Positions 2,276-21,620 are shown, numbered from the stretch's first letter. The stretch: DNA of 22,155 nt from a virus (IMGVR_UViG_3300031623_000058:1-22155); one strand, 5' to 3'. The notes: generated from the sequence alone by a model not told the origin. Program-made: numbers and translations.

Positions 2276-3733
2276 TTAAGTCCAGTCAAGTTTTTCTATT
2301 GAAAAAGGATACTGAGCTTCTTTATAAAACTTTTTACGTTGTGTTAAATGTCGCTTTGCATACTTACACGTTGACGTAATATCCCATATTTGTACAAAGT
2401 CTTTGTCTTCTGCCTTACGTACACCTCTGCCTATTGATTGTATAACACGAACAAAGCTCTTACCAGGTTCTATTAGAACAAGATTAAAAATGCGAGGTAT
2501 ATTAATCCCTACAGCCGCAACGCCATAAGTTGCAATAATAACTTTGTTAGTTGCTAATTTAACTTCGTCATATTGCTCTTTCCTATCTTTTAATTTTACA
2601 TCACCTTTAATAAAAACTGCTTCTGGTATTTGTTCTGCTAACAGTTCTCCTGCTTTAATACGGTCTACAAGTATTAATGTATTTCCTGAGTCTCTAATAG
2701 AGCTCATCATTTTGCCTATATATGCTATTCTTTTTTCATGCGTAACAAGATATTTTAATTCTTCTGCGTATCCATTATGCACTTGTGTATCTATTAATTG
2801 TACTACATTAACATGACAGTTAGATAATACACCTTTATCTTGTAACTCTTTAGCAGTTATCTTTCCTATTACAGGCCCTATACTTGCTAAGATTGCCTGA
2901 AATTCAAAATCTTCTTTTGGTACAGTTCCTGTTAAGCCCCATCTAAGTGGAGTATTTTTTAGATTCTGTGTTAGTAATTTTTTTAATACTTCAGCTTTAG
3001 CTTGGTGTACTTCGTCAACAATTAATGTTTGTACGCCTTCTAAAAACTCTGCTAGTGTTACTACAGCGTCATAGTCTTTACTTTTCTTATCAAGTATGTT
3101 CAAACTTTGCCACGTACAAATAGTATGCGTTTTACCAAGTTCTTTTCTATCACCAAAGTATACACCAACATCTAATCCACAGTTAACATAATCTTCTTCT
3201 GTTTGTGTAACTAAACTTTTATTAGGAACAATTACAAGTGTGCGACCATATGGTTCACAAAGATGTGATAGTGTTGCGGTAATAATTGTTTTGCCAGCCC
3301 CTGTGGCAACTTCTTGTAATGCTTGTGGAGTTTCTAAAAAATTATTAACAACTTCTACTTGGTAATCTCTTAATACAATTTTTTCACCAGCGGCGATGTG
3401 TCCTTCGGGCCAAGTTTTATGTGCCCAATAGTCCTTATCAATTTTATTAAATGCTAAGTTATGCTTAATCCGAAGGTCGCTAATTTCTGCAACTTCTACT
3501 CCTGAATCTACTAAAGTATTAACAATAATATCAAGATGGTTAACATATCCTGTTCCTCCTATACCAAAAAAGTTAATCTTGCCGTCCCAACGACCTAATT
3601 TATATTGCGGTAAGTATCTTGCATAAGGTACTGCAAACTTTAATTTATTTGCAATCTTACGTCTATACTCAACAGGAAGATTTTCAACCTTCACATTAAC
3701 TTCATCTTGAATTACTATTCGACAGCTTACCAT
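2276..3733 (-). CDS. uvsW: UvsW-like superfamily 2 recombination and repair helicase
   Basis: A 485-aa SF2 helicase; T4 UvsW is about 500 aa. Residues 1 to about 110 form a small N-terminal domain with the LGRWDGKINFFG segment seen in UvsW-type proteins. The helicase core shows a Q-motif-like region (VLRDYQVEVV, about 120-129), Walker A ATGAGKT at 143-149, DEVH box at 240-243, motif III-like GLTGT at 266-270, and motif VI QSIGRGVRK at about 432-440. In T4, UvsW unwinds and anneals branched DNA, remodels stalled forks and resolves R-loops, allowing the switch from origin-dependent to recombination-dependent replication. The start overlaps the upstream stop as TAATG, so translation is coupled to the 428-aa unknown protein. 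All key motifs look intact. Confidence 0.93.
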   Translation of the reverse strand: MVSCRIVIQDEVNVKVENLPVEYRRKIANKLKFAVPYARYLPQYKLGRWDGKINFFGIGGTGYVNHLDIIVNTLVDSGVEVAEISDLRIKHNLAFNKIDKDYWAHKTWPEGHIAAGEKIVLRDYQVEVVNNFLETPQALQEVATGAGKTIITATLSHLCEPYGRTLVIVPNKSLVTQTEEDYVNCGLDVGVYFGDRKELGKTHTICTWQSLNILDKKSKDYDAVVTLAEFLEGVQTLIVDEVHQAKAEVLKKLLTQNLKNTPLRWGLTGTVPKEDFEFQAILASIGPVIGKITAKELQDKGVLSNCHVNVVQLIDTQVHNGYAEELKYLVTHEKRIAYIGKMMSSIRDSGNTLILVDRIKAGELLAEQIPEAVFIKGDVKLKDRKEQYDEVKLATNKVIIATYGVAAVGINIPRIFNLVLIEPGKSFVRVIQSIGRGVRKAEDKDFVQIWDITSTCKYAKRHLTQRKKFYKEAQYPFSIEKLDWT

Positions 3734-5019
3734 TAAATTATTTCTACCTTTCTGTCACCAATTTGACACAATGTTCCAAACGCCGATACCTCAGTATCGT
3801 ACTGTATGTATAAATCAGACCCTGAAATATATCCATCTACTTTAGAATAGTTTCTTCTACTACCAACAGTAAATGCACACGAAGGTCGCCATTGAGTTTT
3901 TATTAAGGGCTTGGGAACCTTATTACTATTAATATACACTATTTTTGTTTTGTTGTCAACTATATTATTTAAGTGGTTCTCTCTGATGAAATGGTTAAAT
4001 TCGTTTCCTTTTGGAGAATCTAATCTAAACATAACACTCATTTCTTCTGTTGGAATAAAATTTACAAATCGTCTATGCAGTTCAATTAGTTGATCGTGTG
4101 CTTGTTTACTATCAAGAACTATTAACAATGGATACCGATCCAACTCTTGTATACTTGCTAACACATGGTCAAGCGTCCATTTTGAACTATCAATACATAT
4201 TTGCGAATGCGGTCTTTGTGTAATTTTTGCTGTAAGTAACGAACAATGTTTAAAACTTTCTAATACAGAATTTTCGTCGATCCACTCAAATCCATATAAG
4301 TATCTTCGGTCATAGTATTTCCAAAGATTGGTTTGGGCAGGAAGTTCTCCAATACTATTAACACAATGTTCTACTCCTTTAACAGGTAGATTAGCTATTT
4401 TATAATTGTAGATACCTGGAATATAGTCTTGTTTATTATTATCAAATTCTACTAGTTGATTATATATGTCCATAATTAGTGGTTCTATATCAAACTTCTT
4501 TTCAAATCGTTTAGCTATAGTAACAAGTCGCATAACATATCTTTCTTCAAACGGAAAAAAATGCTGATGCTTTTCGTAGAAGTATTCTTTATCTACACTA
4601 TTTTTTAAATCTTCGATATGTTTTAGAACTTTTTTATTAAAAGGAAATCTAATTACAAGCATCGTCATATCTTTGTAATCTAAAAGTTTAATCCAATGCT
4701 CTTCATTAATTTTACGTAACGGATTACGTAATCGTTCAATACACTCATTAAGATCTATTTCATGTGAATCGAACTGCTTTGAATAATAATCAACTAATAG
4801 CTTTTGTACAAGGGTATATTGACGTTGAGTTAATGCAGTACCTCTAAATACTTGTTTAGCAATACTAAACATTATCTTATGATTGTCTTTGTGTAATGTA
4901 AAATTTTGGAGTTTAGAGAGTGTAGGGTCTTCGTGGAATTTAAGTTGGCTTATTCCGGCAACTAATTCCAAGCAATCTTCAACAGTAAGAGATTCTTTTC
5001 CAACACTTTTTCTAAACAT
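3733..5019 (-). CDS. Unknown 428-aa protein coupled to UvsW; possibly a degenerate helicase-like partner
   Basis: A 428-aa soluble protein with no intact Walker A, DEAD box or nuclease motif that I can see. An N-terminal helical part contains FRGTALTQRQYTLVQKLL (about residues 58-75), recalling helical regions near phage helicases. The C-terminal half shows alternating strands (PLLIVLDSKQAHDQLIELHR; KTKIVYINSN; a WRPSCAFTVGS turn) that resemble a RecA-like fold without its catalytic residues. It ends TAATG into uvsW, so the two are translationally coupled and probably act in the same recombination or repair process (inference). A consensus sigma70 promoter stands just before the ATG with almost no leader, and there is no Shine-Dalgarno sequence. 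The next internal Met is about 50 residues in, so ATG 5019 is favoured. Confidence 0.8.
   Translation of the reverse strand: MFRKSVGKESLTVEDCLELVAGISQLKFHEDPTLSKLQNFTLHKDNHKIMFSIAKQVFRGTALTQRQYTLVQKLLVDYYSKQFDSHEIDLNECIERLRNPLRKINEEHWIKLLDYKDMTMLVIRFPFNKKVLKHIEDLKNSVDKEYFYEKHQHFFPFEERYVMRLVTIAKRFEKKFDIEPLIMDIYNQLVEFDNNKQDYIPGIYNYKIANLPVKGVEHCVNSIGELPAQTNLWKYYDRRYLYGFEWIDENSVLESFKHCSLLTAKITQRPHSQICIDSSKWTLDHVLASIQELDRYPLLIVLDSKQAHDQLIELHRRFVNFIPTEEMSVMFRLDSPKGNEFNHFIRENHLNNIVDNKTKIVYINSNKVPKPLIKTQWRPSCAFTVGSRRNYSKVDGYISGSDLYIQYDTEVSAFGTLCQIGDRKVEII
3931..3959 (-). promoter_or_regulatory. Possible internal sigma70-like promoter upstream of uvsW
   Basis: On the minus strand TTGACA (3959-3954) is followed by a 17-nt spacer and TATATT (3936-3931): a perfect -35 and a 5/6 match to the -10 consensus at ideal spacing. 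It lies within the coding region of the 428-aa protein, about 200 nt before the uvsW start, and could give uvsW extra transcription. The DNA is AT-rich here and codes for protein, so chance is a real alternative. Confidence 0.3.
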
Positions 5020-5021
5020 AA

Positions 5022-5057
5022 TATAACTATTATACTATGTTAGAAGGAAGAAGTCAA
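5022..5057 (-). promoter_or_regulatory. Consensus sigma70-type promoter of the uvsW operon, nearly leaderless
   Basis: Minus-strand TTGACT (5057-5052), a 17-nt spacer, then TATAAT (5034-5029) preceded by TAG. With the usual distance from the -10 box, transcription would begin near 5022, about 3 nt before ATG at 5019. The elements sit in the end of the upstream gene (stop at 5042-5040) and in the 20-nt gap. The same TTGACT-17-TATAAT arrangement recurs before gp32, which supports it as a real early or middle promoter type recognised by host sigma70-like RNA polymerase. Confidence 0.75.
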
Positions 5058-5888
5058 GTGTTTATGTGGCAATCCTTGAGAAATTTCTTCAATTGTCCAT
5101 TCAGTATACGCTAAATCATTAAGCCACTGTTGTCTATTAGGCATAGCTGGATTATTAATAGTGTCTAATGAAGTGTTACTGACATCCCAGGCTAAACTTT
5201 CAGGACCTACAAAAACAGGAATGCCACCAATAACTGCTTGGGTAGCCGGGTTGCTAGACCAATTTACTACTGCCCATGCATTATGGAAATCAAAGTCAAA
5301 GTCATCATATGTATTTGGAATTTGTTGGGGTATTTCGTATGTTACGTTTGTAAATGTTTTAAGTTCAGTTAATGTTAATTTATTTCTAGGATGTGAACGA
5401 ACAATTATAGGTCGTGCTGTATGGTGTCTTATAGTCTCAATAGTAGCAAGAACCCATTCCTTCATTCTTGGCATATCGCGCCATTGGTGACTTTTATCAT
5501 GCTGGCCGCATATAATTATATCTCTGCCACTAGTGCGCCAGGGATGTAACTTTAAATTTAATAAGTTTGCACGTTCAGGACCGTTTTCTTTAGGACCAAA
5601 ATCTGCTTCCCTATTAATTCCGTTAATCCCAACCTTCCAAGTAGTACCTCGCTTGATACCACCAACTTCTAAAACTACTACTGGTTTATTTTGCGCCTTG
5701 CATATTTCCCATAGGTTTTTGTTTGGAGCCATTCTCCCGTTCCACAGAATACTCCAAATGACACATACGTCACTGTCATGATCGTTAAACACAACATCGT
5801 GACCGGAAACACGACACCCACTAGCAAAATTATCAAACACGTTTCTACTGTTTTTTGCACCATAATCTGTCCATAAGCTAAATTTCAT
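5040..5888 (-). CDS. KpsC/capsule-synthesis-like glycosyltransferase family protein (paralogue 1)
   Basis: A 282-aa protein sharing its C-terminal domain with two nearby genes. Diagnostic stretches are RPIIVRSHPRNK (about 159-170), a VVNWSSNPATQAVIGGIPVFVGPE block (about 207-230; Ser/Asn-rich loop, then GG-PV-V) and a Trp-rich tail (QQWLNDLAY.EWT). This R-HP / NSS-A-A...G-P-V pattern is that of capsular polysaccharide and sialyl/Kdo-transferase-like GT-B proteins (KpsC/KpsS type), where the loop contacts the CMP-sugar. The N-terminal half, with IWSILWNGRMAPN and VVLEVGG, would form the acceptor-side Rossmann domain. ATG 5888 lacks a clear ribosome-binding site. Donor and acceptor are unknown; a role in making or modifying a surface or virion glycan is inferred from neighbours. 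Confidence 0.75.
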   Translation of the reverse strand: MKFSLWTDYGAKNSRNVFDNFASGCRVSGHDVVFNDHDSDVCVIWSILWNGRMAPNKNLWEICKAQNKPVVVLEVGGIKRGTTWKVGINGINREADFGPKENGPERANLLNLKLHPWRTSGRDIIICGQHDKSHQWRDMPRMKEWVLATIETIRHHTARPIIVRSHPRNKLTLTELKTFTNVTYEIPQQIPNTYDDFDFDFHNAWAVVNWSSNPATQAVIGGIPVFVGPESLAWDVSNTSLDTINNPAMPNRQQWLNDLAYTEWTIEEISQGLPHKHLTSSF

Positions 5889-5903
5889 TTATATTTAGAG
5901 CAG

Positions 5904-6743
5904 TTATACTCCACTCCAATAGTCTTCAGTTCTATTTACTAATAAATCTTTTTTTCTACTACTGCCTTCTGTCTTACGTACACCCTTCATATGATCAAGC
6001 CAAGTTCCTAATACAGAATTAATTAGAGGATGTCCACCACCTCCAGTCTTTGCTATATTGTTATAAATGTGTTCACTATAATCTAATACATTAGGGTACT
6101 TTACTTTCATCTGATTTAGTATATGTCCAAATACAAATGAGTCATGCCATTCATCTAATTTAAAAATACCATCTTCGGCTTCTTCGTAATAACGTTCGAA
6201 CTCGTCTAAAAATTGTCTACACATTCTATCTTTAATATTCAAACCGTAAAAGCCACACTCAGGCCATGTTTGACTTCCGATACCTCTACCTACATACGTG
6301 ATCCATTTGTTTCTTGGCAATAAGTCAGATATTTGTTGATAACTCCAGTTACTATGAACAAAGGTGTCAGCATCAATCCATACTATCCAAGTAGCTTCGG
6401 GGTCTTGACATTCTTTAAATACAGAATAAACTTTATTAGCAAACCTAATAGCATGCCATTTAAACTCTTTATGATGATCACGTGGACGTCTTTCGGGCCA
6501 TGGACATTTGCCATTTGCTTTAGGTACATCTTTCCATTTTTCTTTAAAGGCTGTTAGTTTTGTTAATTCTTTTTGATCTTTAATAATAATTTGTTGGGGT
6601 CTAGGATTACTTGGTTGACAATCTTCAGCATACACTATCAATGGAATATTATTATCGACACGCTCTGCAAAACTATTAATAAATCGTTGTCCGTATTCAA
6701 CTAATCCCGGTTTATGAAATGTAGTTACAAATTTAATATCCAT
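5904..6743 (-). CDS. GT-A fold glycosyltransferase
   Basis: A 279-aa protein with a GT-A nucleotide-sugar-binding core. The N-terminal strand MDIKFVTTFH leads the fold, a long middle section rich in Trp and His (KEFKWHAIRFANKVYSVF) precedes WIVWIDADTFVH with the metal-binding DxD at residues 124-126, followed by WPECGFYGLN and a catalytic-region FKLDEWHDSFVFG; a C-terminal HPLINSVLGTWLDHMKG block may bind the nucleotide. Signal peptide and membrane segments are absent, so it should act in the cytoplasm on a sugar nucleotide. It overlaps the 97-aa unknown upstream by 11 nt and lies in the glycan island. The sugar and acceptor cannot be inferred from sequence alone. Confidence 0.8.
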   Translation of the reverse strand: MDIKFVTTFHKPGLVEYGQRFINSFAERVDNNIPLIVYAEDCQPSNPRPQQIIIKDQKELTKLTAFKEKWKDVPKANGKCPWPERRPRDHHKEFKWHAIRFANKVYSVFKECQDPEATWIVWIDADTFVHSNWSYQQISDLLPRNKWITYVGRGIGSQTWPECGFYGLNIKDRMCRQFLDEFERYYEEAEDGIFKLDEWHDSFVFGHILNQMKVKYPNVLDYSEHIYNNIAKTGGGGHPLINSVLGTWLDHMKGVRKTEGSSRKKDLLVNRTEDYWSGV

Positions 6744-7026
6744 TTTTTATTTCCTTTATATAGCTATTCAAATAGTCTTTAGTATCCTGTTTTACTTCAG
6801 GAGTAAAAAGAAAGCCAAATGTTTGTAGACGCCATAGTAATACCTCAGGGCCTTTTAAAAGACGATACCAATAAAATGGTAAAGATATTAGTGGCATTTT
6901 ATTCATTCCTGACCGACACAAAATAAAATCTTGAATCTGTTGTCGCGAGTGTCGAATAAGCTCCCAGTTTCCACGTTCTTTTAACGCCTTGGATATTCTA
7001 AGAATATTTAAAAATACTTTAATCAT
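6733..7026 (-). CDS. Unknown 97-aa protein in the glycosyltransferase island
   Basis: A small basic protein rich in Leu, Ile and aromatic residues: helix-like N-terminus (MIKVFLNILRISKALKERG), a middle stretch LISLPFYWYRLLKGPEVLLWRL that is amphipathic rather than a clear transmembrane helix, and a charged C-terminus. No family is recognised. ATG 7026 overlaps the upstream stop as ATGA, and its end overlaps the next glycosyltransferase by 11 nt, so it is a coupled member of the island. A peripheral membrane helper or a glycosyltransferase partner is possible but unproven. Confidence 0.65.
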   Translation of the reverse strand: MIKVFLNILRISKALKERGNWELIRHSRQQIQDFILCRSGMNKMPLISLPFYWYRLLKGPEVLLWRLQTFGFLFTPEVKQDTKDYLNSYIKEIKNGY

Positions 7027-7214
7027 TCTTTGGCTTTTTGTGCTTCATCTTTAGTCTGCGTATATTTTAAAGCCGCTTTGCCTTTGTTTCGTTTTCCTTG
7101 ATGGAATACATTTTCTCTTTGCCATGCCATAGCCGTTCTAGGGTTACACGTACATTGATATCTAAATACAGCATCGCACTTTCTACAAAATCTTGAATTA
7201 ACTCTACCATCCAT
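7023..7214 (-). CDS. Small zinc-ribbon-like basic protein
   Basis: About 63 residues from ATG 7214, or 72 from the in-frame ATG at 7241. I prefer 7214 because it forms a TAATG junction with the upstream stop, a pattern repeated in this genome; AGGA lies about 10 nt upstream. A cysteine cluster FCRKCDAVFRYQCTCNP (C-x2-C, then C-x-C after seven residues) is typical of a small zinc ribbon. The C-terminus is Lys-rich (GKRNKGKAALKY, KDEAQKAKE), which fits nucleic-acid binding. It is out of keeping with the surrounding glycosyltransferases and no homologue is recognised. Confidence 0.65.
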   Translation of the reverse strand: MDGRVNSRFCRKCDAVFRYQCTCNPRTAMAWQRENVFHQGKRNKGKAALKYTQTKDEAQKAKE

Positions 7215-8140
7215 TATATAAAATTCCTCATGTGTTGCCATGCTTCACCAGTAAGTAAATCTTTGAAGCTCCAGTGGCATTGTGCTATGTTATTAATCCA
7301 TTGAGTTCTATCTTTTTTCTGTAGGTTGTTTATGTCAGCTAAGTTAGTATGACATACTTCAGCTACTTGACTTGCAGTAGGATCTTCTACTATTACTGGT
7401 ACGCCCTCAATTACACTTGCTACAGCTGGACTACTATTATAAACGATTGTAACCATACTCTTTGCTAAATCATGTTCTATACGAGGTTCAAAACTAATAC
7501 GTACATTAGGTCCATGAATTTGTTTTGTATATTCAGGAGCCTTCTTATCTCCAGGGTGCGGTCTAACTATAATTGGTCTTTCGCTATACTGTCTAATATC
7601 TGCTATTTTACTATTAGCCCATTGTACAACATCTTTGCCCTTCATTGACCAGCCACCATTGCGTTGTAGACATAACAAAATACATTCACGTTCATTTATT
7701 GACCACGGTTGTAAAGTAACACCTAAGTCTCTTTGAATCTTGCGCCACTGACTGTCTGTTGAATTCTTATTACAATAATTTCCAGTATCATTAAAAACAC
7801 CATTAACACTATATCGTAGATAATGATGTGGTTCGTTAGTTATTGCTTTATATAAAAATAAATTACTATCTGCTGTTATAAATGCTTTATTTCTTGTATT
7901 ATTTGATATGCCTCTTCTAAGTTGTATGTGTGGGACATGAGCACTTCCTTCATGTATAAAGCCTTGCATCATTGCAACATCACATTCTAATAACTCAAAC
8001 CCGTCATAGACAAGACCATTATCTCCACATTCTCTTACTCCTGCAACAAAGTTACGTATAATTTGTTCCTTATGATTATGCTTTAACGGTTTAGCTCTTG
8101 TTCCAGGTGGAATAACTTTAGTGTAACCGACTACTCTCAT
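7214..8140 (-). CDS. KpsC/capsule-synthesis-like glycosyltransferase family protein (paralogue 2)
   Basis: 308 residues from ATG 8140, which overlaps the preceding stop as ATGA and has GGAG 9 nt upstream; an upstream in-frame TTG is less likely. It is clearly related to the 5040-5888 protein: SERPIIVRPHPGDKK, then VYNSSPAVASVIEGVPVIVE and a Trp-rich tail with RTQWINNIAQCHWSF. The canonical R-x-HPG-x-K motif is better preserved here than in paralogue 1. The N-terminal half is different (HVPHIQLRRG, a FLYKAITNEPHHYLRYSVNG region) and probably sets the acceptor. Predicted cytoplasmic GT-B-type transferase; donor unknown. Confidence 0.8.
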   Translation of the reverse strand: MRVVGYTKVIPPGTRAKPLKHNHKEQIIRNFVAGVRECGDNGLVYDGFELLECDVAMMQGFIHEGSAHVPHIQLRRGISNNTRNKAFITADSNLFLYKAITNEPHHYLRYSVNGVFNDTGNYCNKNSTDSQWRKIQRDLGVTLQPWSINERECILLCLQRNGGWSMKGKDVVQWANSKIADIRQYSERPIIVRPHPGDKKAPEYTKQIHGPNVRISFEPRIEHDLAKSMVTIVYNSSPAVASVIEGVPVIVEDPTASQVAEVCHTNLADINNLQKKDRTQWINNIAQCHWSFKDLLTGEAWQHMRNFI

Positions 8141-9189
8141 TTTACTATACTCCAAGCATATCCATTTAACATCTCGTCATACGTAAACTGATTATTAGCA
8201 AGGTAACGACAAAGCCAAGTTAGTTGTTTACGTCCTGGATGTTTTGCAAATTCAATGTGCGACAGTTTTGTTTGAGCAATATCTTGAGCACAATTAGGAC
8301 CTAATACTATTGCAGGTTTTCCATAAATCATTGATTCTAAGGCCGCAATACTATTGTATGTTACTAAACAATGTACATCACCATCTAGTGCTTGTTCCAT
8401 TGTATTAACTGATACTCGAGCTTCTCTACTAGGTTTCTTTCTAATTTCAACATCTCGTTGTGTATGTTTTTGAATTTGCATAACAGTATTTTCAATCCAG
8501 ATATCTAAATCTAATTCAAAATACTTCATTACTTTTTCGCTAGGAGGAACTAAAAGAATTTTCTTTCCAGGCTTAACATCTTTAAACTGTATAGCAAGAC
8601 GCTTCCATCGTTCACCACCATAATGCTGAGGAGCTTTTAGTAATAGATTAGCATCAAGTTTTCTTTGTGCAGTTATATCATCATCACCTGCTTCTTTTAC
8701 ATTATCTTCTAGTCTATCTCTAGCAGGCATGTGAAGGTTTTGTAATGCATTTTTAACTATTCGATGATAAGTCTTTTTACCACTAGGATTTGTTGGGCTT
8801 GGATTATTTCCAACATATCCGGTATCCATAAAATAAAAATCTCTGCCCACTTCAATACATTTTTTAATAATTTTAGTTTTACCTAACCCCCTTACTAAGA
8901 TTGGAGTTTTGTCATCCCAGTCTATATCGTCAGCTCTAATATATCTGCCATTGGATCCTAACGCCATTGCCATTACAAAAGAATCAACTAATCCAAATGG
9001 TGATTTTTCTTTTTTCTCTACTTTTTTAATTCCGCTATCAACACAAATTAGATTAGGCTTTTTAACATCTTCAAATGCTCGCGTTACTGCATTAACAGCA
9101 TCCTTAGCCTGGCCTGTTGCTACAGCGGCAAGTATATGATTAACTAAATCTTTTAATTCTGGTTTCAAGTGTCTAGGATCCCATTCCAT
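8137..9189 (-). CDS. KpsC/capsule-synthesis-like glycosyltransferase family protein (paralogue 3)
   Basis: 350 residues from ATG 9189, 1 nt after the previous stop with AGGGAAAA upstream; an extended frame runs to 9276 but would overlap the upstream gene heavily. The C-terminal domain carries the family signature VTYNSIAALESMIYGKPAIVLGPN (an NS-AA-E-GKP-V motif) and a tail with KQLTWLCRYLA. The basic segment before it (EIRKKPSREARVSV) replaces the R-HPG-x-K motif of paralogue 2, so the donor pocket may differ. Residues about 1-75 are charged and helical. It is the longest and most divergent of the three and, like the others, has no signal peptide. Confidence 0.75.
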   Translation of the reverse strand: MEWDPRHLKPELKDLVNHILAAVATGQAKDAVNAVTRAFEDVKKPNLICVDSGIKKVEKKEKSPFGLVDSFVMAMALGSNGRYIRADDIDWDDKTPILVRGLGKTKIIKKCIEVGRDFYFMDTGYVGNNPSPTNPSGKKTYHRIVKNALQNLHMPARDRLEDNVKEAGDDDITAQRKLDANLLLKAPQHYGGERWKRLAIQFKDVKPGKKILLVPPSEKVMKYFELDLDIWIENTVMQIQKHTQRDVEIRKKPSREARVSVNTMEQALDGDVHCLVTYNSIAALESMIYGKPAIVLGPNCAQDIAQTKLSHIEFAKHPGRKQLTWLCRYLANNQFTYDEMLNGYAWSIVK

Positions 9190-9190
9190 T

Positions 9191-9877
9191 TTATTTTCCC
9201 TGCATAGTTTCTGCAAGTACATCTTTCCAAACTTGATTATACTCACAGTTTCGATAATCTTTAAACCAAGGCCCACCTTCTGTATAATGTAATGCTTTAG
9301 GTTTACCGTCCTTTGGTTCTTTATACCAGCCCACTAACCAATTCCAATCAATCGGTAATGAACCAATTTCTTCATCTTCTAACCAAGAAAATCTATGTAA
9401 ATATTTTCCTGTTGTACCTTCATCATTAATTACATCAACTGTTAAGTTTTGATTACTTGGATGTCCGCAGTTCCATAATACTAATGAACTCCAGTTTTTT
9501 CTTGGATATTGTGTTTGTACTCTTCCATCCATCTTCGAGCCCGGCTTTGGTTTATACTCATGTTGTACGCACATAACAGCATACTTGTCATCAACTAAAT
9601 TAAATAAGTTTTGTACATCTTCTAAAAATACAACATCGTCATCACAAAATAATGCCCACCCTTTATAATCCATTAGATGCGGAACAAGGAACCTAGTAAA
9701 CGTAAACTCAGTTGATCCAAGTTTATCAGGTTCTCTCCAGTATAAGTTGCGTTGTCGTAAATCTTGTTGTGCTAACGGCTCAACTTTAACATCACTATTA
9801 AATCGTTTAATACTATGTTCACACACTTGCCAAGGAATGTCGCTCCGAGTATCGTATCCAATAAAGACGTTATTCAT
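9191..9877 (-). CDS. GT-A glycosyltransferase, GT8-like
   Basis: A 228-aa protein beginning MNNVFIGYDTR, the typical first strand of GT8-like enzymes, with a substrate-region STEFTFTRFLVPHLM and a metal-binding WALFCDDDVVFLED (DDD at about 79-81). Later motifs SSLVLWNCGHP, PIDWNWLVGW and a C-terminal LHYTEGGPWF match the acceptor and nucleotide-binding His regions of this group. The start overlaps the methyltransferase stop as ATGA. Expected reaction: transfer of a hexose or related sugar from a nucleotide donor. Sugar identity is unknown. Confidence 0.85.
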   Translation of the reverse strand: MNNVFIGYDTRSDIPWQVCEHSIKRFNSDVKVEPLAQQDLRQRNLYWREPDKLGSTEFTFTRFLVPHLMDYKGWALFCDDDVVFLEDVQNLFNLVDDKYAVMCVQHEYKPKPGSKMDGRVQTQYPRKNWSSLVLWNCGHPSNQNLTVDVINDEGTTGKYLHRFSWLEDEEIGSLPIDWNWLVGWYKEPKDGKPKALHYTEGGPWFKDYRNCEYNQVWKDVLAETMQGK

Positions 9878-10563
9878 GCACGTTCCTTCCTACACCAAAT
9901 TGCTGTCTGGTCAATAGTATGTATCTCCATTGTATCTCCAAAGACGTCATGAAAGGCTTTTTTACTACCTTGCCAACTATTATAGTCATCAATTACACAT
10001 ATACCACCTACTGATAACTTAGGCCAAAGTACCTTTAATTCCTTATACGTACTTTCATACCAATCAGTATCTAATCGAAGTAATGCAATATTAGTTGGTA
10101 CATTTCCCGGATTCTCAAGTGTTTTACATACATCACCAACAACATACTTGGTTTGACTTTGTGGAATAAATGGATTTATATTCTCAACAACTTCATTTAA
10201 TTCTGCCCTGCACCACTGATCATAACCTTTTTTTGCCTTAGTACTCTGATGTGCAAATCCATAAGATCCGTCAGCGTTAATTCTATAATCTTCTTCAGTT
10301 GGTGTTGTCATACCTTCAAATGTATCATACAACCAAAATTGTCTTTTGCTTTTTGTGTTTCCTAACCAAGCACTAATTATTTGGCCGCCTTTATAAACAC
10401 CACATTCTACTATAGCACCTTCAATTTTTTCTTTATCTAATTCTTTAACAGTATGATATGTATGTAACAGTCGTCGACCACTTGTCATAGTATAAGGTTT
10501 ACATACAGTTAGCATGTTCCATTCATCTTCTGTAAACTCTTCTTTACGCAATTCGTTTAACAT
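9874..10563 (-). CDS. TylF/MycF-type macrocin O-methyltransferase family protein
   Basis: A 229-aa SAM-dependent methyltransferase of the TylF family. Visible signatures: AIVECGVYKGG (about 50-60, SAM loop), FWLYDTFEGM (the family DTFEGM motif), LLRLDTDWYESTYKELKVLW and GGICVIDDYNSWQGSKKAF, with acidic residues typical of the Mg-binding site. Family members O-methylate sugar hydroxyls in antibiotics and glycans, so the likely substrate here is a sugar made by adjacent genes (inference). ATG 10563 has AGGA 5 nt upstream and overlaps the end of a 41-aa ORF closely. Length is near the family norm. Confidence 0.88.
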   Translation of the reverse strand: MLNELRKEEFTEDEWNMLTVCKPYTMTSGRRLLHTYHTVKELDKEKIEGAIVECGVYKGGQIISAWLGNTKSKRQFWLYDTFEGMTTPTEEDYRINADGSYGFAHQSTKAKKGYDQWCRAELNEVVENINPFIPQSQTKYVVGDVCKTLENPGNVPTNIALLRLDTDWYESTYKELKVLWPKLSVGGICVIDDYNSWQGSKKAFHDVFGDTMEIHTIDQTAIWCRKERA

Positions 10564-10569
10564 ATTATC

Positions 10570-10695
10570 CTAGAAACTTAAGATCCAAAAAAATACTACA
10601 AAACATAATAAAACAATCAATGCCCATTTTTCTGGGCCCTCTATGTTTCCATATTTCTTAGATTCTTCCCAAACTTCTTTCCAATTTATTTTCAT
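10570..10695 (-). CDS. Tiny single-pass membrane peptide (41 aa)
   Basis: ATG at 10695 overlaps the stop of the nucleotidyltransferase gene as ATGA, and the TAG is at 10572-10570, filling an otherwise empty 128-nt gap. GAGGA lies about 12 nt upstream of the ATG. Residues 1 to about 22 are charged (KEVWEESKKYG), and residues 24-40 form one hydrophobic helix (WALIVLLCFVVFFWIL) running to the C-terminus, giving a tail-anchored topology. No homologue is recognised. It may anchor a glycan-assembly complex at the inner membrane (speculation). Confidence 0.6.
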   Translation of the reverse strand: MKINWKEVWEESKKYGNIEGPEKWALIVLLCFVVFFWILSF

Positions 10696-11459
10696 AAGCG
10701 TTCAATGTCCTCTTCAACGCATCTTCTACCGTATTGTACTTCTAATATATGACACGGTTCTGTTGTATGATTACACCCTTGATGCCATTCATTTTCTTTA
10801 ATTGTAACTGTTTCATTTACAGTAAATTGACCATTTTCTTCTACATCAGATGACACGTTTATTGTATTAACTGTACATTTGCCTTTAAGAATATACCAAT
10901 GTTCTGCTCTATCTTGATGACGTTGCATACTTAAACTTTTGTTAGGCTCTATTACTAGTTCTTTAACTTTGTAACCATCCTTGTCATCTAGTACTCTGTA
11001 CCAACCCCAAGCACGTATTGTTTTAGGGTTTTTCCATTCTTCTAATATCCAACTGCTAGAATTTTTCTTGTTATCTCCGCCAACTCCAAATGCAAATTTT
11101 ACATCAGGATGAGCACCCCATTGTTTCATTTCAGGAATGGTTTCTTCTGTTCTATCTCCACCATTAGCAAAAATGATTTTTCTTGCACCTATGGCCATAG
11201 CTTTGTAAATTGCACCGCCGGCATCATCAACCCTATCGTCATTTGGAATATCAATAACATTATCAACAACTTTAAGATTTCTAATGATTTCACAGCGTTC
11301 AGCTATAGGCATAAACGCTCTTCCTTTTTTGCGTATTAACCATTCGTCAGAATTAATACCAACCCATAATTCATCGCCTAGCTCTTTAGCCGCTTTGAAA
11401 TACGCAATATGCCCAGAGTGGAGAGGGTCGAATCCTCCTGTAACCAATACAACTGTCAT
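10692..11459 (-). CDS. Cytidylyltransferase-like nucleotidyltransferase fused to a cupin domain
   Basis: About 255 residues from ATG 11459 (GTG at 11462 is the alternative; no strong ribosome-binding site is seen). Residues about 2-135 are a nucleotidyltransferase of the TagD/RfaE-C type: GGFDPLHSGH with the HxGH site at 15-18, INSDEWLIRKKG, ERCEIIRNL and an SSSW motif near 135-138. Residues about 150-256 are a cupin like that of type II phosphomannose isomerase, with SLSMQRHQDRAEHWYILKG and a second strand EWHQGCNH. The first part would form a CDP- or ADP-linked alcohol or sugar, and the cupin would bind or isomerise the same sugar phosphate; the joint reaction is inferred. It sits at the head of the sugar genes. 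Confidence 0.85.
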   Translation of the reverse strand: MTVVLVTGGFDPLHSGHIAYFKAAKELGDELWVGINSDEWLIRKKGRAFMPIAERCEIIRNLKVVDNVIDIPNDDRVDDAGGAIYKAMAIGARKIIFANGGDRTEETIPEMKQWGAHPDVKFAFGVGGDNKKNSSSWILEEWKNPKTIRAWGWYRVLDDKDGYKVKELVIEPNKSLSMQRHQDRAEHWYILKGKCTVNTINVSSDVEENGQFTVNETVTIKENEWHQGCNHTTEPCHILEVQYGRRCVEEDIERL

Positions 11460-11477
11460 CACAACTGTATTTAATCT

Positions 11478-12176
11478 TTATCGGAGAGTAGCTTGTATAT
11501 AATTGATTAGTGTTTCAGGATCAGATTTTTCATACGGATCTTCGTCGTTACCTGTTTGATTAAATCCAGGTTCAACAAATGCTTGATCAACAATACCGTT
11601 AATAACATATACTGAATAACGCCACGAACGTGGGCCAAATCCTAGATGTCTTTTATTACAACTAACGCCCATTGCTTGAGAAAAATCACCATTACCATCA
11701 GCGAGTAGTTTAATATTCTTAATACCTAAACTGTCAAACCAAGCATTCATAACAAAGCCGTCATTAACTGAAGCACAATATACTTCGTCTACACCTAGAC
11801 CTTTAAATCTATCATATGCTTCGTCATATGCTGGTAATTGTTTAGTTGAACATGTTGGAGTAAATGCTCCCGGTAGGCCAAATAGTACAACCTTTTTCTT
11901 TGTAAAAATCTCAGCAGTAGTAATTGTTTGAAAGTCTCCCATTACCCTATTAACAAATGTAGCATTAGGTATACGATCAAATCTTTCTATTTTTTGTATA
12001 GAACCTGGTAATGCAGGGTGTCCTATTCGTTCGAATTTATCTTTATATGCATTAGCGTACTCTTCAGGAGTCGGCGGCCGCTCAGTTTCGGTTTCAAATG
12101 TCTTGTCGGTCCCCCGGTGGTTGCCACCATATTGAGTTTTAAGTTGTTTACCGATATCAGTGTCAGTTAGTTTCAT
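11478..12176 (-). CDS. Prx5-type peroxiredoxin with an extra N-terminal segment
   Basis: A 232-aa thiol peroxidase. The catalytic block VVLFGLPGAFTPTCS (about 96-110) places the peroxidatic Cys at 109 with the conserved PxxxTPxC context, and SWRYSVYV (about 184-191) carries the conserved Arg. Cys134 and Cys173 could act in resolution. The Prx5 domain spans about residues 64-232. The first 60 or so residues, with a Pro-Thr-Glu-rich ETERPPTPEEYANAYKDKF segment, are an extra region absent from typical Prx5 proteins of roughly 160-170 aa. The enzyme would reduce peroxides using host thioredoxin or glutathione systems. ATG 12176 overlaps the small upstream ORF as ATGA. An auxiliary metabolic gene is inferred, possibly countering oxidative stress in the infected cell. 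Confidence 0.88.
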   Translation of the reverse strand: MKLTDTDIGKQLKTQYGGNHRGTDKTFETETERPPTPEEYANAYKDKFERIGHPALPGSIQKIERFDRIPNATFVNRVMGDFQTITTAEIFTKKKVVLFGLPGAFTPTCSTKQLPAYDEAYDRFKGLGVDEVYCASVNDGFVMNAWFDSLGIKNIKLLADGNGDFSQAMGVSCNKRHLGFGPRSWRYSVYVINGIVDQAFVEPGFNQTGNDEDPYEKSDPETLINYIQATLR

Positions 12177-12343
12177 TTGTATATTTTCCTCCAGCGTTGA
12201 TCATATATATTTTTATCATCTTCTGTTAATATATAGCTAGGAGATGCCTCCATTCGCTTTATTAATTCTTTTAAGTCTTTGCCTTCACTAGTTAACTCTT
12301 CGTCTGGTACATCTATTAAACTTAATAAATATCTTCGGCTCAC
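12173..12343 (-). CDS. Small hypothetical protein (56 aa, GTG start)
   Basis: GTG at 12343 has GGAG 7 nt upstream, and its TGA overlaps the peroxiredoxin ATG. The frame fills the 179-nt gap between uvsY and the peroxiredoxin gene. The product is highly charged, with LIDVPDEELTSEGKDLKELIKRMEA-like helical content and a C-terminal Trp-Arg-Lys segment. No homologue is recognised. The good ribosome-binding site and coupled stop/start support real translation, though the size leaves doubt. Confidence 0.6.
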   Translation of the reverse strand: MSRRYLLSLIDVPDEELTSEGKDLKELIKRMEASPSYILTEDDKNIYDQRWRKIYK

Positions 12344-12355
12344 ATACCTACTCCA

Positions 12356-12811
12356 TTAAAGACGAGCGTCTTCCATACCAGCAACTCGAAGCTTCACTAT
12401 ATTAGTTAGTTGCCATTGCTTTTGGTCTAGAGCCTTAGTGACTCCTAACCATTTGTTCCGCATAAGTGCGAATTCGTTAATGATTTTTTCGTAATCAACA
12501 ACGTCAGCTTCACCGTCAACATACTTTTCTACGTCACGACTACTTAATGCTCGTTGATAACTTTCCAAATATTTTCTAAAAAATGAACTTCTTAAACGGC
12601 GTAATTCAATATTTAGATATTCTAATATCGCTTCAAGCTCTTGAAGTTGATTGAACCGTTGTTCAACTAAGCCGGGCATCTCTGCCGCGGCATTTTCGAT
12701 ACTACCTTTAATCCGGATCTCAGCCTTAGCTTCTTCAAGCTCATGTTCAAAGTATCCTATTGCCGCAGGTATCTTATTAATATTTTTTGCAACGTCTGAA
12801 TACCAGCCCAT
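12356..12811 (-). CDS. uvsY: UvsY-like recombination mediator
   Basis: A 151-aa, largely helical and charged protein (T4 UvsY is 137 aa). The C-terminal half carries the pattern RDVEKYVDGEADVVDYEKII followed by KWLGVTKALDQKQWQLTNIV, which aligns by eye with the DVDKYLD...LE...LNNRTFQIKN region of T4-like UvsY. UvsY loads the UvsX recombinase onto gp32-covered ssDNA. Context strongly supports this: gp32, uvsX and this gene follow one another in one direction, separated by one small gene. The start at 12811 overlaps the previous stop as TAATG. The N-terminal Ala-Glu-Pro part (residues about 1-60) is not diagnostic. No key truncation is seen. Confidence 0.75.
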   Translation of the reverse strand: MGWYSDVAKNINKIPAAIGYFEHELEEAKAEIRIKGSIENAAAEMPGLVEQRFNQLQELEAILEYLNIELRRLRSSFFRKYLESYQRALSSRDVEKYVDGEADVVDYEKIINEFALMRNKWLGVTKALDQKQWQLTNIVKLRVAGMEDARL

Positions 12812-20761: not shown

Positions 20762-21250
20762 TTATTTATCCATGTGCTTGAGTTTTTCTAGCAGACTATT
20801 GCGATCTGTAACTACATACCCTTCGCCGTTTACTATATTAGCATCATCTATGTGACTTTCTTTATCCATTTTTTCTTTTTTAAGCTGTAATTCTACCATC
20901 TTTAGCTTTTTATCAAGTTTTGCATTCTTAGCGTCTAAGTTAGTTTTAAGCATTTGGCCTGCAACTTCAAACACACGCCCTGAATATCGTGCTTCAACGT
21001 TCATACCTAGATCCATTAAATCTTCGTATGCCTGCATAGACTTATCAGAAACTTCATTTAGTTCCTTATCAGCTAGTTCTCCTAGACCCTTTACCTGAGG
21101 TAAAGCCGCTGTAATTTTGTCAAATTCAGCTATTTCGCGAAATGTTTCTTTTTGTTCTCGCTTCGCTTCTAGTTTAGCTTTATTGTTATCTGCATCGATA
21201 ATTTCTCTTGATTCAGGTAAGTTTAAAAGCTCTTCTAACTTCTTAGTCAT
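20762..21250 (-). CDS. 16: Small terminase subunit (gp16-like)
   Basis: A 162-aa helical protein (T4 gp16 is 164 aa). The central part matches the family layout: FDKITAALPQVKGLGE, MQAYEDLMDLGMNVEARYSGRVFEVAGQML and the tail KNAKLDKKLKMVELQLKKEK, giving a helix-turn-helix core with a long coiled-coil. gp16 rings recognise the DNA for packaging and regulate gp17 ATPase and nuclease activity. ATG 21250 overlaps the iscU stop by 8 nt with AAGGAAAG upstream. gp17 is three genes downstream, fitting a packaging cluster. Confidence 0.85.
   Translation of the reverse strand: MTKKLEELLNLPESREIIDADNNKAKLEAKREQKETFREIAEFDKITAALPQVKGLGELADKELNEVSDKSMQAYEDLMDLGMNVEARYSGRVFEVAGQMLKTNLDAKNAKLDKKLKMVELQLKKEKMDKESHIDDANIVNGEGYVVTDRNSLLEKLKHMDK
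20763..20770 (-). promoter_or_regulatory. Late promoter element (GATAAATA) upstream of the 190-aa virion gene
   Basis: Minus-strand GATAAATA (20770-20763) overlaps the end and TAA stop of the gp16 gene. Predicted start is near 20757, leaving a leader of about 19 nt with AAGGAAA before ATG 20738. It matches the late consensus seen at gp17 and the 674-aa gene; because it coincides with Asp-Lys-stop codons, chance is possible. Confidence 0.5.
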
Positions 21251-21620
21251 TTCTTTCCTTATAATTTTTTACAGCTGATTTAATTGCATCTTCGGCTAAA
21301 ACTGAACAATGAATTTTAACTGGGGGTAATGCTAATTCTTCAGCTATGTCCATATTTTTAATTTCTTCTGCTTGGTCTAAAGTTTTACCTTTTAACCATT
21401 CAGTTACTAAACTTGAACTTGCAATAGCTGAACCACACCCAAATGTTTTAAATTTTGCATCTACTATTGTTTCTTTGTCTACTTTAATTTGTAACTTCAT
21501 AACATCACCACATGCTGGTGCTCCAACCATTCCAGTTCCAACTGTTGGATCTTCTTTATCAAACGTACCTACATTTCGCGGATTCTCGTAATGGTCTAAA
21601 ACTTTTTCACTATAAGGCAT
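21243..21620 (-). CDS. iscU: IscU iron-sulfur cluster scaffold protein
   Basis: A 125-aa protein matching bacterial IscU along its full length (E. coli IscU is 128 aa). All cluster ligands are in place: GAPACGDVM with Cys37 and Asp39, FGCGS with Cys62, and KIHCS with His104 and Cys105. The LPPVK motif (98-102), recognised by the HscA chaperone, is intact. It should hold nascent [2Fe-2S] clusters delivered by IscS and pass them to carriers. Its neighbours are a membrane protein and gp16, with the gp16 start overlapping its stop by 8 nt, so it is co-expressed with virion packaging genes. AGAGAG precedes ATG 21620. It resembles cellular IscU so closely that recent acquisition is likely (inference). 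Confidence 0.95.
   Translation of the reverse strand: MPYSEKVLDHYENPRNVGTFDKEDPTVGTGMVGAPACGDVMKLQIKVDKETIVDAKFKTFGCGSAIASSSLVTEWLKGKTLDQAEEIKNMDIAEELALPPVKIHCSVLAEDAIKSAVKNYKERND

Follow-up and report, generated by a model that had tools for sequence, protein, structure and literature searches.

Retaining transferases of 3-deoxy-D-manno-oct-2-ulosonic acid (Kdo) are, going by the papers cited below, the one glycosyltransferase group for which a double-displacement mechanism has been shown, and its origin has been described as unclear. The group includes KpsC (family GT107), the N-terminal domain of WbbB (GT99) and KrkA (GT140). It is defined by a QXXXD motif, in which the Asp is the nucleophile and the Gln binds the Kdo carboxylate, by a (K/R)XHP motif that binds cytidine monophosphate (CMP), and by a Glu base (PMC12887879, PMC10148158, PMC9587256). 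Known retaining β-Kdo transferases share negligible sequence similarity with one another (PMC12887879). In viruses, kdsA, kdsB and heptose genes are already known from marine surveys as auxiliary metabolic genes of the lipopolysaccharide (LPS) type (PMC10653327, PMC9529941). Here we describe a cassette of glycan genes between uvsY and uvsW in the viral sequence IMGVR_UViG_3300031623_000058:1-22155 (hereafter the window; at 22,155 bp it is the complete IMG/VR record). Three of its genes encode paralogues, K1, K2 and K3, that are predicted to resemble KpsC and in which the Asp nucleophile has been replaced. A limited search of open-licence papers found no description of such a transferase cassette or of nucleophile-less KpsC-type enzymes. 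We put at a little under 60% the probability that the cassette is a cytoplasmic phage pathway to a short Kdo-type oligosaccharide, with K2 and K3 as inverting enzymes and, by a slight lean, a protein as acceptor.

The three K genes lie on the minus strand at 8137–9189 (K1, 350 aa), 7214–8140 (K2, 308 aa from the likely ATG) and 5040–5888 (K3, 282 aa). A search with K2 within the window finds K3 at E = 9.8e-19 and K1 at 4.9e-6, a profile–profile comparison of K2/K3 with K1 gives E = 1.3e-23, and each of the three proteins carries the NS..A...G.P motif. Judged by these comparisons, their paralogy, proposed earlier in a reading of the sequence alone (the sequence-only reading), is beyond doubt. 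Comparison with 30 homologues moved the start of K1 to the ATG at 9189, giving 350 instead of 379 residues, and K1 therefore abuts the neighboring GT8-like gene by 1 bp. K2 most likely starts at the ATG at 8140, with a 4-bp overlap with K1; its residue numbers are counted here from the TTG at 8155.

The AlphaFold2 model of K2 has a predicted local distance difference test score (pLDDT) of 88.3 and a predicted TM-score of 0.86. Its top 15 Foldseek matches in the PDB are all KpsC, KrkA or WbbB, with E-values of 8.9e-7 to 2.8e-5 and a probability of 1.00. The K1 model is weaker (pLDDT 74.8); KpsC structures take the first three places among its matches (2.8e-4 to 9.3e-4, the best being 6mgb). The models thus point to the KpsC-type two-Rossmann fold for K2 and, with fair support, for K1, and K3 would share it by homology to K2, so that the KpsC-like assignment made in the sequence-only reading is right at the level of fold. 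An identity of K1 with TagF, a CDP-glycerol-type polymerase, was considered and rejected, as Foldseek matches to it have low probability only. The Pfam family Capsule_synth (PF05159), which covers KpsC and KpsS, has no match in the window even at E = 10 and none in four cultured phages. Since the known members of the group share negligible similarity, it is expected that the relation to KpsC is invisible to sequence searches.

We counted motifs in an alignment of the whole phage K family, including a fourth paralogue, K4, and two cellular loci (L175 and L177); the comparison with the KpsC sequence rests on one published peptide and the papers cited above. Where QXXXD is expected, K2 has QRNGG (7652–7666) and K3 has QHDKS (5490–5504), and their CMP-binding motifs read RPHP (7553–7564) and RSHP (5388–5399), respectively. 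K1 has no QXXXD, and RKKP (8431–8442) stands where RXHP is expected. The R-HP region that had been ascribed to each paralogue is therefore found in K2 and K3 but not in K1, which lacks the His; the sequence-only reading had overlooked this loss, as well as the absence of the catalytic Asp from K1, K2 and K3. The Gln is invariant in K2 (21/21), K3 (26/26) and K4 (16/16), and the RXHP His is 100% conserved in the same three classes. In the K1 class the Gln is absent and the His column contains Lys (28/28). Asp occupies the nucleophile column in all 16 K4 sequences and in the two cellular loci; K3 always has Ser there, K2 has Gly or Asn, and no K1 sequence has an acidic residue. One N-terminal column is acidic in every row, with Glu in K3 and K4 and Asp in K1 and K2. 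The residues in question are D122 in K1 (8824–8826), D96 in K2 (7868–7870) and E74 in K3 (5667–5669), and by likeness to Glu66 of KpsC this position is the probable general base.

K2, and less well K1, thus resemble KpsC, WbbB and KrkA in fold, and K2 and K3 also share with them the Gln and the (K/R)XHP motif; the motif spacing is similar, and an acidic residue stands where the base probably lies. They differ in the replaced nucleophile, in the further loss of Gln and His from K1, in having a single module and in showing no detectable sequence similarity. Because the QXXXD nucleophile was looked for and is absent from all three, we do not file K1–K3 in GT99, GT107 or GT140; they probably act like members of that fold group or descend from it. 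Purifying selection acts on every cassette gene, with ratios of nonsynonymous to synonymous substitution rates (dN/dS) of 0.05–0.37. The possibility that K1–K3 are decaying pseudo-enzymes is rejected: their dN/dS is 0.05–0.25, and the substitutions have been fixed throughout each class, which marks the motif losses as selected changes.

K4 retains what K1–K3 have lost. It occurs in sister marine phages (L184 and L253–L280) and was seen in 28 viral loci, with an intact QXXXD (QRPGD) and R-X-H-P, and was not found in the window's phage. It belongs to the same family and the same uvsY–uvsW interval, where it is typically followed by the nucleotidyltransferase gene, GT8, K1, K2, the putative glycosyltransferase gene GTx and K3 as far as the contig reaches. 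In hhalign, K4 matches K2/K3 at 9.6e-53, with QRPGDSSLK in K4 against QRNGGWSMK in K2.

The other enzymes of the cassette are also encoded on the minus strand. The GT8-like GT-A glycosyltransferase (9191–9877; PF01501, 2.4e-7, 31.0 bits against a cut-off of 24.3) is conserved in 30 distinct relatives and carries D79-D80-D81 at 9635–9643, of which D79 and D81 are invariant. GTx (5904–6743) is a putative GT-A enzyme with an invariant DAD motif, D124-A-D126, at 6366–6374; it has no family match, no sequence match in the PDB and no profile match to GT8. A TylF-type O-methyltransferase at 9874–10563 belongs to PF05711 (3.1e-32, 112.3 bits against a cut-off of 23). The gene at 10692–11462 encodes a fusion of a HIGH-type nucleotidyltransferase, similar to TagD and the C-terminal part of HldE, with a MannoseP_isomer-type cupin (NT-cupin). 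It matches the Pfam families CTP_transf_like (1.3e-14) and MannoseP_isomer (4e-21), whereas its NCBIfam matches to TIGR02199 (1.1e-16) and GMP_PMI (2.8e-18) are both under the curated cut-offs. It belongs to the domain family itself but falls short of the equivalog scores for rfaE_dom_II (60.9 against 181.5 bits) and TagD (45.7 against 165.4 bits), and in the PDB it matches CTP:ethanolamine-phosphate and glycerol-3-phosphate cytidylyltransferases.

The window's terminase finds its matches among T4-superfamily phages, closest in the jumbo phage PA5oct and its kin (~53%), and the gene order is gp17, gp32, uvsX, uvsY, cassette, uvsW. The relatives are marine contigs, the longest of them 268 kb. 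Of 65 related marine loci found with K2, 63 keep the order TylF-GT8-K1-K2-GTx-K3-h428-uvsW up to the ends of their contigs; the other two (L066 and L067) are divergent relatives with extra K copies and GTx on the opposite strand. The glycan island outlined in the sequence-only reading is thus borne out: every gene listed there is present, including the two enzymes with DDD and DAD motifs that it read as GT-A, the methyltransferase and the fusion protein, a coordinated gene set is conserved in relatives, and the predicted folds are not unrelated to GT-B enzymes. The accompanying claim that all genes are coupled by overlaps goes too far, as overlaps are frequent but NT-cupin and TylF are separated by ~130 bp and GTx and K3 by 15 bp.

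Related gene sets occur in two cultured phages and in bacteria. Pelagibacter phage Mosig EXVC030M has GTx-GT8-K-K genes together with FkbM methyltransferases, but its genes are near nrdA/nrdB, a sulfotransferase gene separates the two K genes, and both K proteins are of the K1 class, with neither the Gln nor the HP His. Caulobacter phage CcrColossus has K-K-GT8 in a row (gp126–gp129), but these genes come after the tail genes and before the lysis cassette, with a putative sialyltransferase-like gene adjoining. The single-cell genomes of marine alphaproteobacteria represented by L175 and L177 show the order GT8-K1-...-GTx-K; in these the last K has QXXXD (QLPHD) and no HP, and L177 has a tetratricopeptide-repeat protein in mid-module and cellular housekeeping genes on its flanks. 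This alphaproteobacterial module is a possible cellular source of the cassette.

Genes for the synthesis of the donor sugar are found in relatives. The 267,783-bp contig G001 encodes KdsA above the NCBIfam curated cut-off and KdsB at E = 4.7e-48. Of 80 viral loci with KdsB, 72 also have KdsA, and within 10 kb 30 have uvsW and 19 a K2/K3-type gene; where cassette genes are present, the order is K3, uvsW, KdsA, KdsB. In L184, K4-NT-GT8-K1-K2-GTx-K3-uvsW-KdsA-KdsB all lie inside 20 kb. L184 is a phage despite its bacterial bin, since gp32, uvsX and uvsY are present. Other arrangements include KdsB within the cassette (L212), GT8 adjoining Kds genes in Alteromonas (L196) and Thalassotalea (L208), and a further separate one in cyanophage S-SCSM2R. 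HldE, for ADP-heptose, is present on all seven contigs longer than 100 kb, including G004 and G005, which are closest to the window, and HldD adjoins HldE in G001. The Kds linkage and the presence of HldE on every long relative add to the earlier case for a glycan-building role. The same sugar-nucleotide supply genes (kdsA, kdsB, gmhD/hldE) have been listed as LPS-pathway genes in marine surveys (PMC10653327, PMC9529941); here a conserved transferase cassette accompanies them.

We consider it rather unlikely that the K proteins use another CMP- or CDP-linked donor, or a different one altogether, and that the Kds linkage is a coincidence of a crowded glycan region. Such a donor would agree with the loss of QXXXD from K1–K3 and of Gln and His from K1, with the cytidylyltransferase matches of NT-cupin and with the lack of KdsA/KdsB in G004 and G005, which are fragments. 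Against it, the residue that binds the Kdo carboxylate in KpsC-type enzymes is invariant in K2 and K3, as is RXHP, and the Kds linkage recurs in several distinct arrangements.

For the acceptor, we slightly prefer a protein, either flagellin or one of the virion's own proteins, to host LPS. Glycosylation of a virion protein, or of flagellin in the host, is possible, if short of an even chance, on several lines of indirect evidence. The GT8 tree nests five genes of marine betaproteobacteria (L170–L174), with strong support, in the phage clade of the window's group, and in four of the five loci GT8 lies at most ~10 kb from a gene for a giant flagellin of about 1135 aa; the fifth contig is only 4.7 kb long. 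The nesting points to gene exchange between phages and such bacteria, perhaps their hosts, and on this tree a passage of GT8 from phages into marine betaproteobacteria, with its hint of a host, is possible. Tail genes adjoin K-K-GT8 in CcrColossus, HldE/HldD adjoin a 2569-aa probable tail fibre in G001 (L074–L087), and the cassette has no lipid-carrier, flippase or polymerase gene. On the other side, the betaproteobacterial GT8 occurs without K genes, and gene neighborhood is indirect evidence.

An alternative that we rate only slightly lower is remodeling of host LPS, in which the glycan is placed on the lipid A-core, alters the receptor and blocks superinfection. Kdo and heptose are inner-core sugars, and the presence of HldE on every long relative, of HldD on G001 and of KdsA-KdsB would fit, as would an Alteromonas carbohydrate locus in which GT8 adjoins KdsA-KdsB and a KdsD-like gene. 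LPS core sugars are added at the cytoplasmic face, so no exporter of the phage's own would be needed. The position of the nearest cellular GT8 relatives by flagellin genes and that of K-K-GT8 after the tail genes in CcrColossus argue against LPS, and the one candidate tested has no match to a heptosyltransferase family. DNA, which the sequence-only reading had also named as an acceptor, is disfavored. DNA glycosylation is known from T4-superfamily phages, and the cassette lies among DNA-repair genes, but PF00303 (thymidylate synthase/hydroxymethylase) is absent from eight relatives including the 268-kb G001, and an acceptor that is a saccharide or a protein is what enzymes of the KpsC type and KdsAB suggest; sugars on modified bases of phage DNA are therefore most improbable.

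In the Kdo pathway that we favor, the cassette would build and O-methylate a short oligosaccharide in which Kdo, or an ulosonic acid much like it, is one of the sugars. Both K2 and K3 would bind the CMP-activated ulosonate through the Gln and R-X-H-P on a KpsC-like fold, with the donor supplied by phage KdsA-KdsB in some relatives and by the host in the window's phage. Since the Asp nucleophile is gone and an acidic residue is kept at the likely base position, we infer that transfer takes a single step and inverts, unlike the retaining reaction of KpsC with its two steps. K1 may perform a diverged step, GT8 and GTx may add ordinary hexose-type sugars, TylF would methylate, and NT-cupin may make or tune one nucleotide sugar. 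The class-specific fixed residues partly support the earlier suggestion of successive steps, each with its own sugar: they are compatible with different reactions, which may draw on different donors.

Several observations weigh against this pathway. The top structural matches of the K2 model have TM-scores of 0.4–0.5 (~0.5 to KpsC), the root mean square deviation from KpsC is 8–11 Å across both domains, and neither a K2+K3 profile nor a K4 profile matches KpsC in the PDB. The general base is assigned from the phage-family alignment and the pattern likeness to Glu66, not from superposed structures. KdsA/KdsB were detected in only one of 10 cassette contigs searched, all of them fragments, and were not found in the fragments G004 and G005 of the window's subclade; part of the cassette–Kds linkage reflects shared ancestry of gene order.

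The genes flanking the cassette, all on the minus strand, are uvsW (helicase, 2276–3733) downstream and uvsY (12356–12811) upstream; the latter has no Pfam match in the window but adjoins UvsX and keeps its position in related loci. The conserved protein h428 (3733–5019) lies between K3 and uvsW in all relatives, has no Pfam or NCBIfam match and may go with either the cassette or uvsW. Two small open reading frames (ORFs), h97 and h72 (6733–7241), are a lineage-specific insertion outside the conserved cassette, h97 being seen only in one near-identical contig and h72 in that contig and four close relatives. A 41-aa ORF at 10570–10695 overlaps the end of NT-cupin and precedes TylF; its hydrophobic C-terminal stretch is likely one membrane helix. 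In several relatives NT-cupin and TylF overlap or abut, leaving no space for it. A peroxiredoxin gene (11478–12176; phrog_2281, 5.9e-62) is followed towards uvsY by a 56-aa ORF with a GTG start (12173–12343), which probably accounts for the end of the interval at 12343 in the sequence-only reading; neither is obviously a glycan gene. The T4 late promoter TATAAATA has no occurrence in the window against 3.95 expected, and promoter and terminator scans of the window gave no excess over chance. Elsewhere, the window encodes a NifU/IscU-type iron–sulfur scaffold protein (21243–21620, minus strand; NifU_N, 5.1e-54). G001 also encodes a nucleotide-sugar dehydrogenase and NodU-type carbamoyltransferases; inspection by eye alone suggests QueD/QueE-like, ThyX-like and ClpP-like proteins as well, together with several that resemble radical-SAM enzymes.

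A bolder proposal, which we regard as doubtful, is that K1–K3 are the founders of new glycosyltransferase families, with a double-displacement scaffold of the KpsC type turned into single-displacement, inverting CMP-ulosonate transferases (K2 and K3) or to a different reaction (K1), and that the phages use them to place a Kdo-type glycan on their virions or on the flagellum of the host. Since close paralogues that keep the nucleophile and others that lack it often share an operon, the origin of double displacement becomes directly testable, and the cultured relatives Mosig and CcrColossus make tests feasible. The findings suggest that a complete Kdo-glycan pathway, from donor synthesis to transferases, is carried by some marine phages, and not only stray LPS genes.

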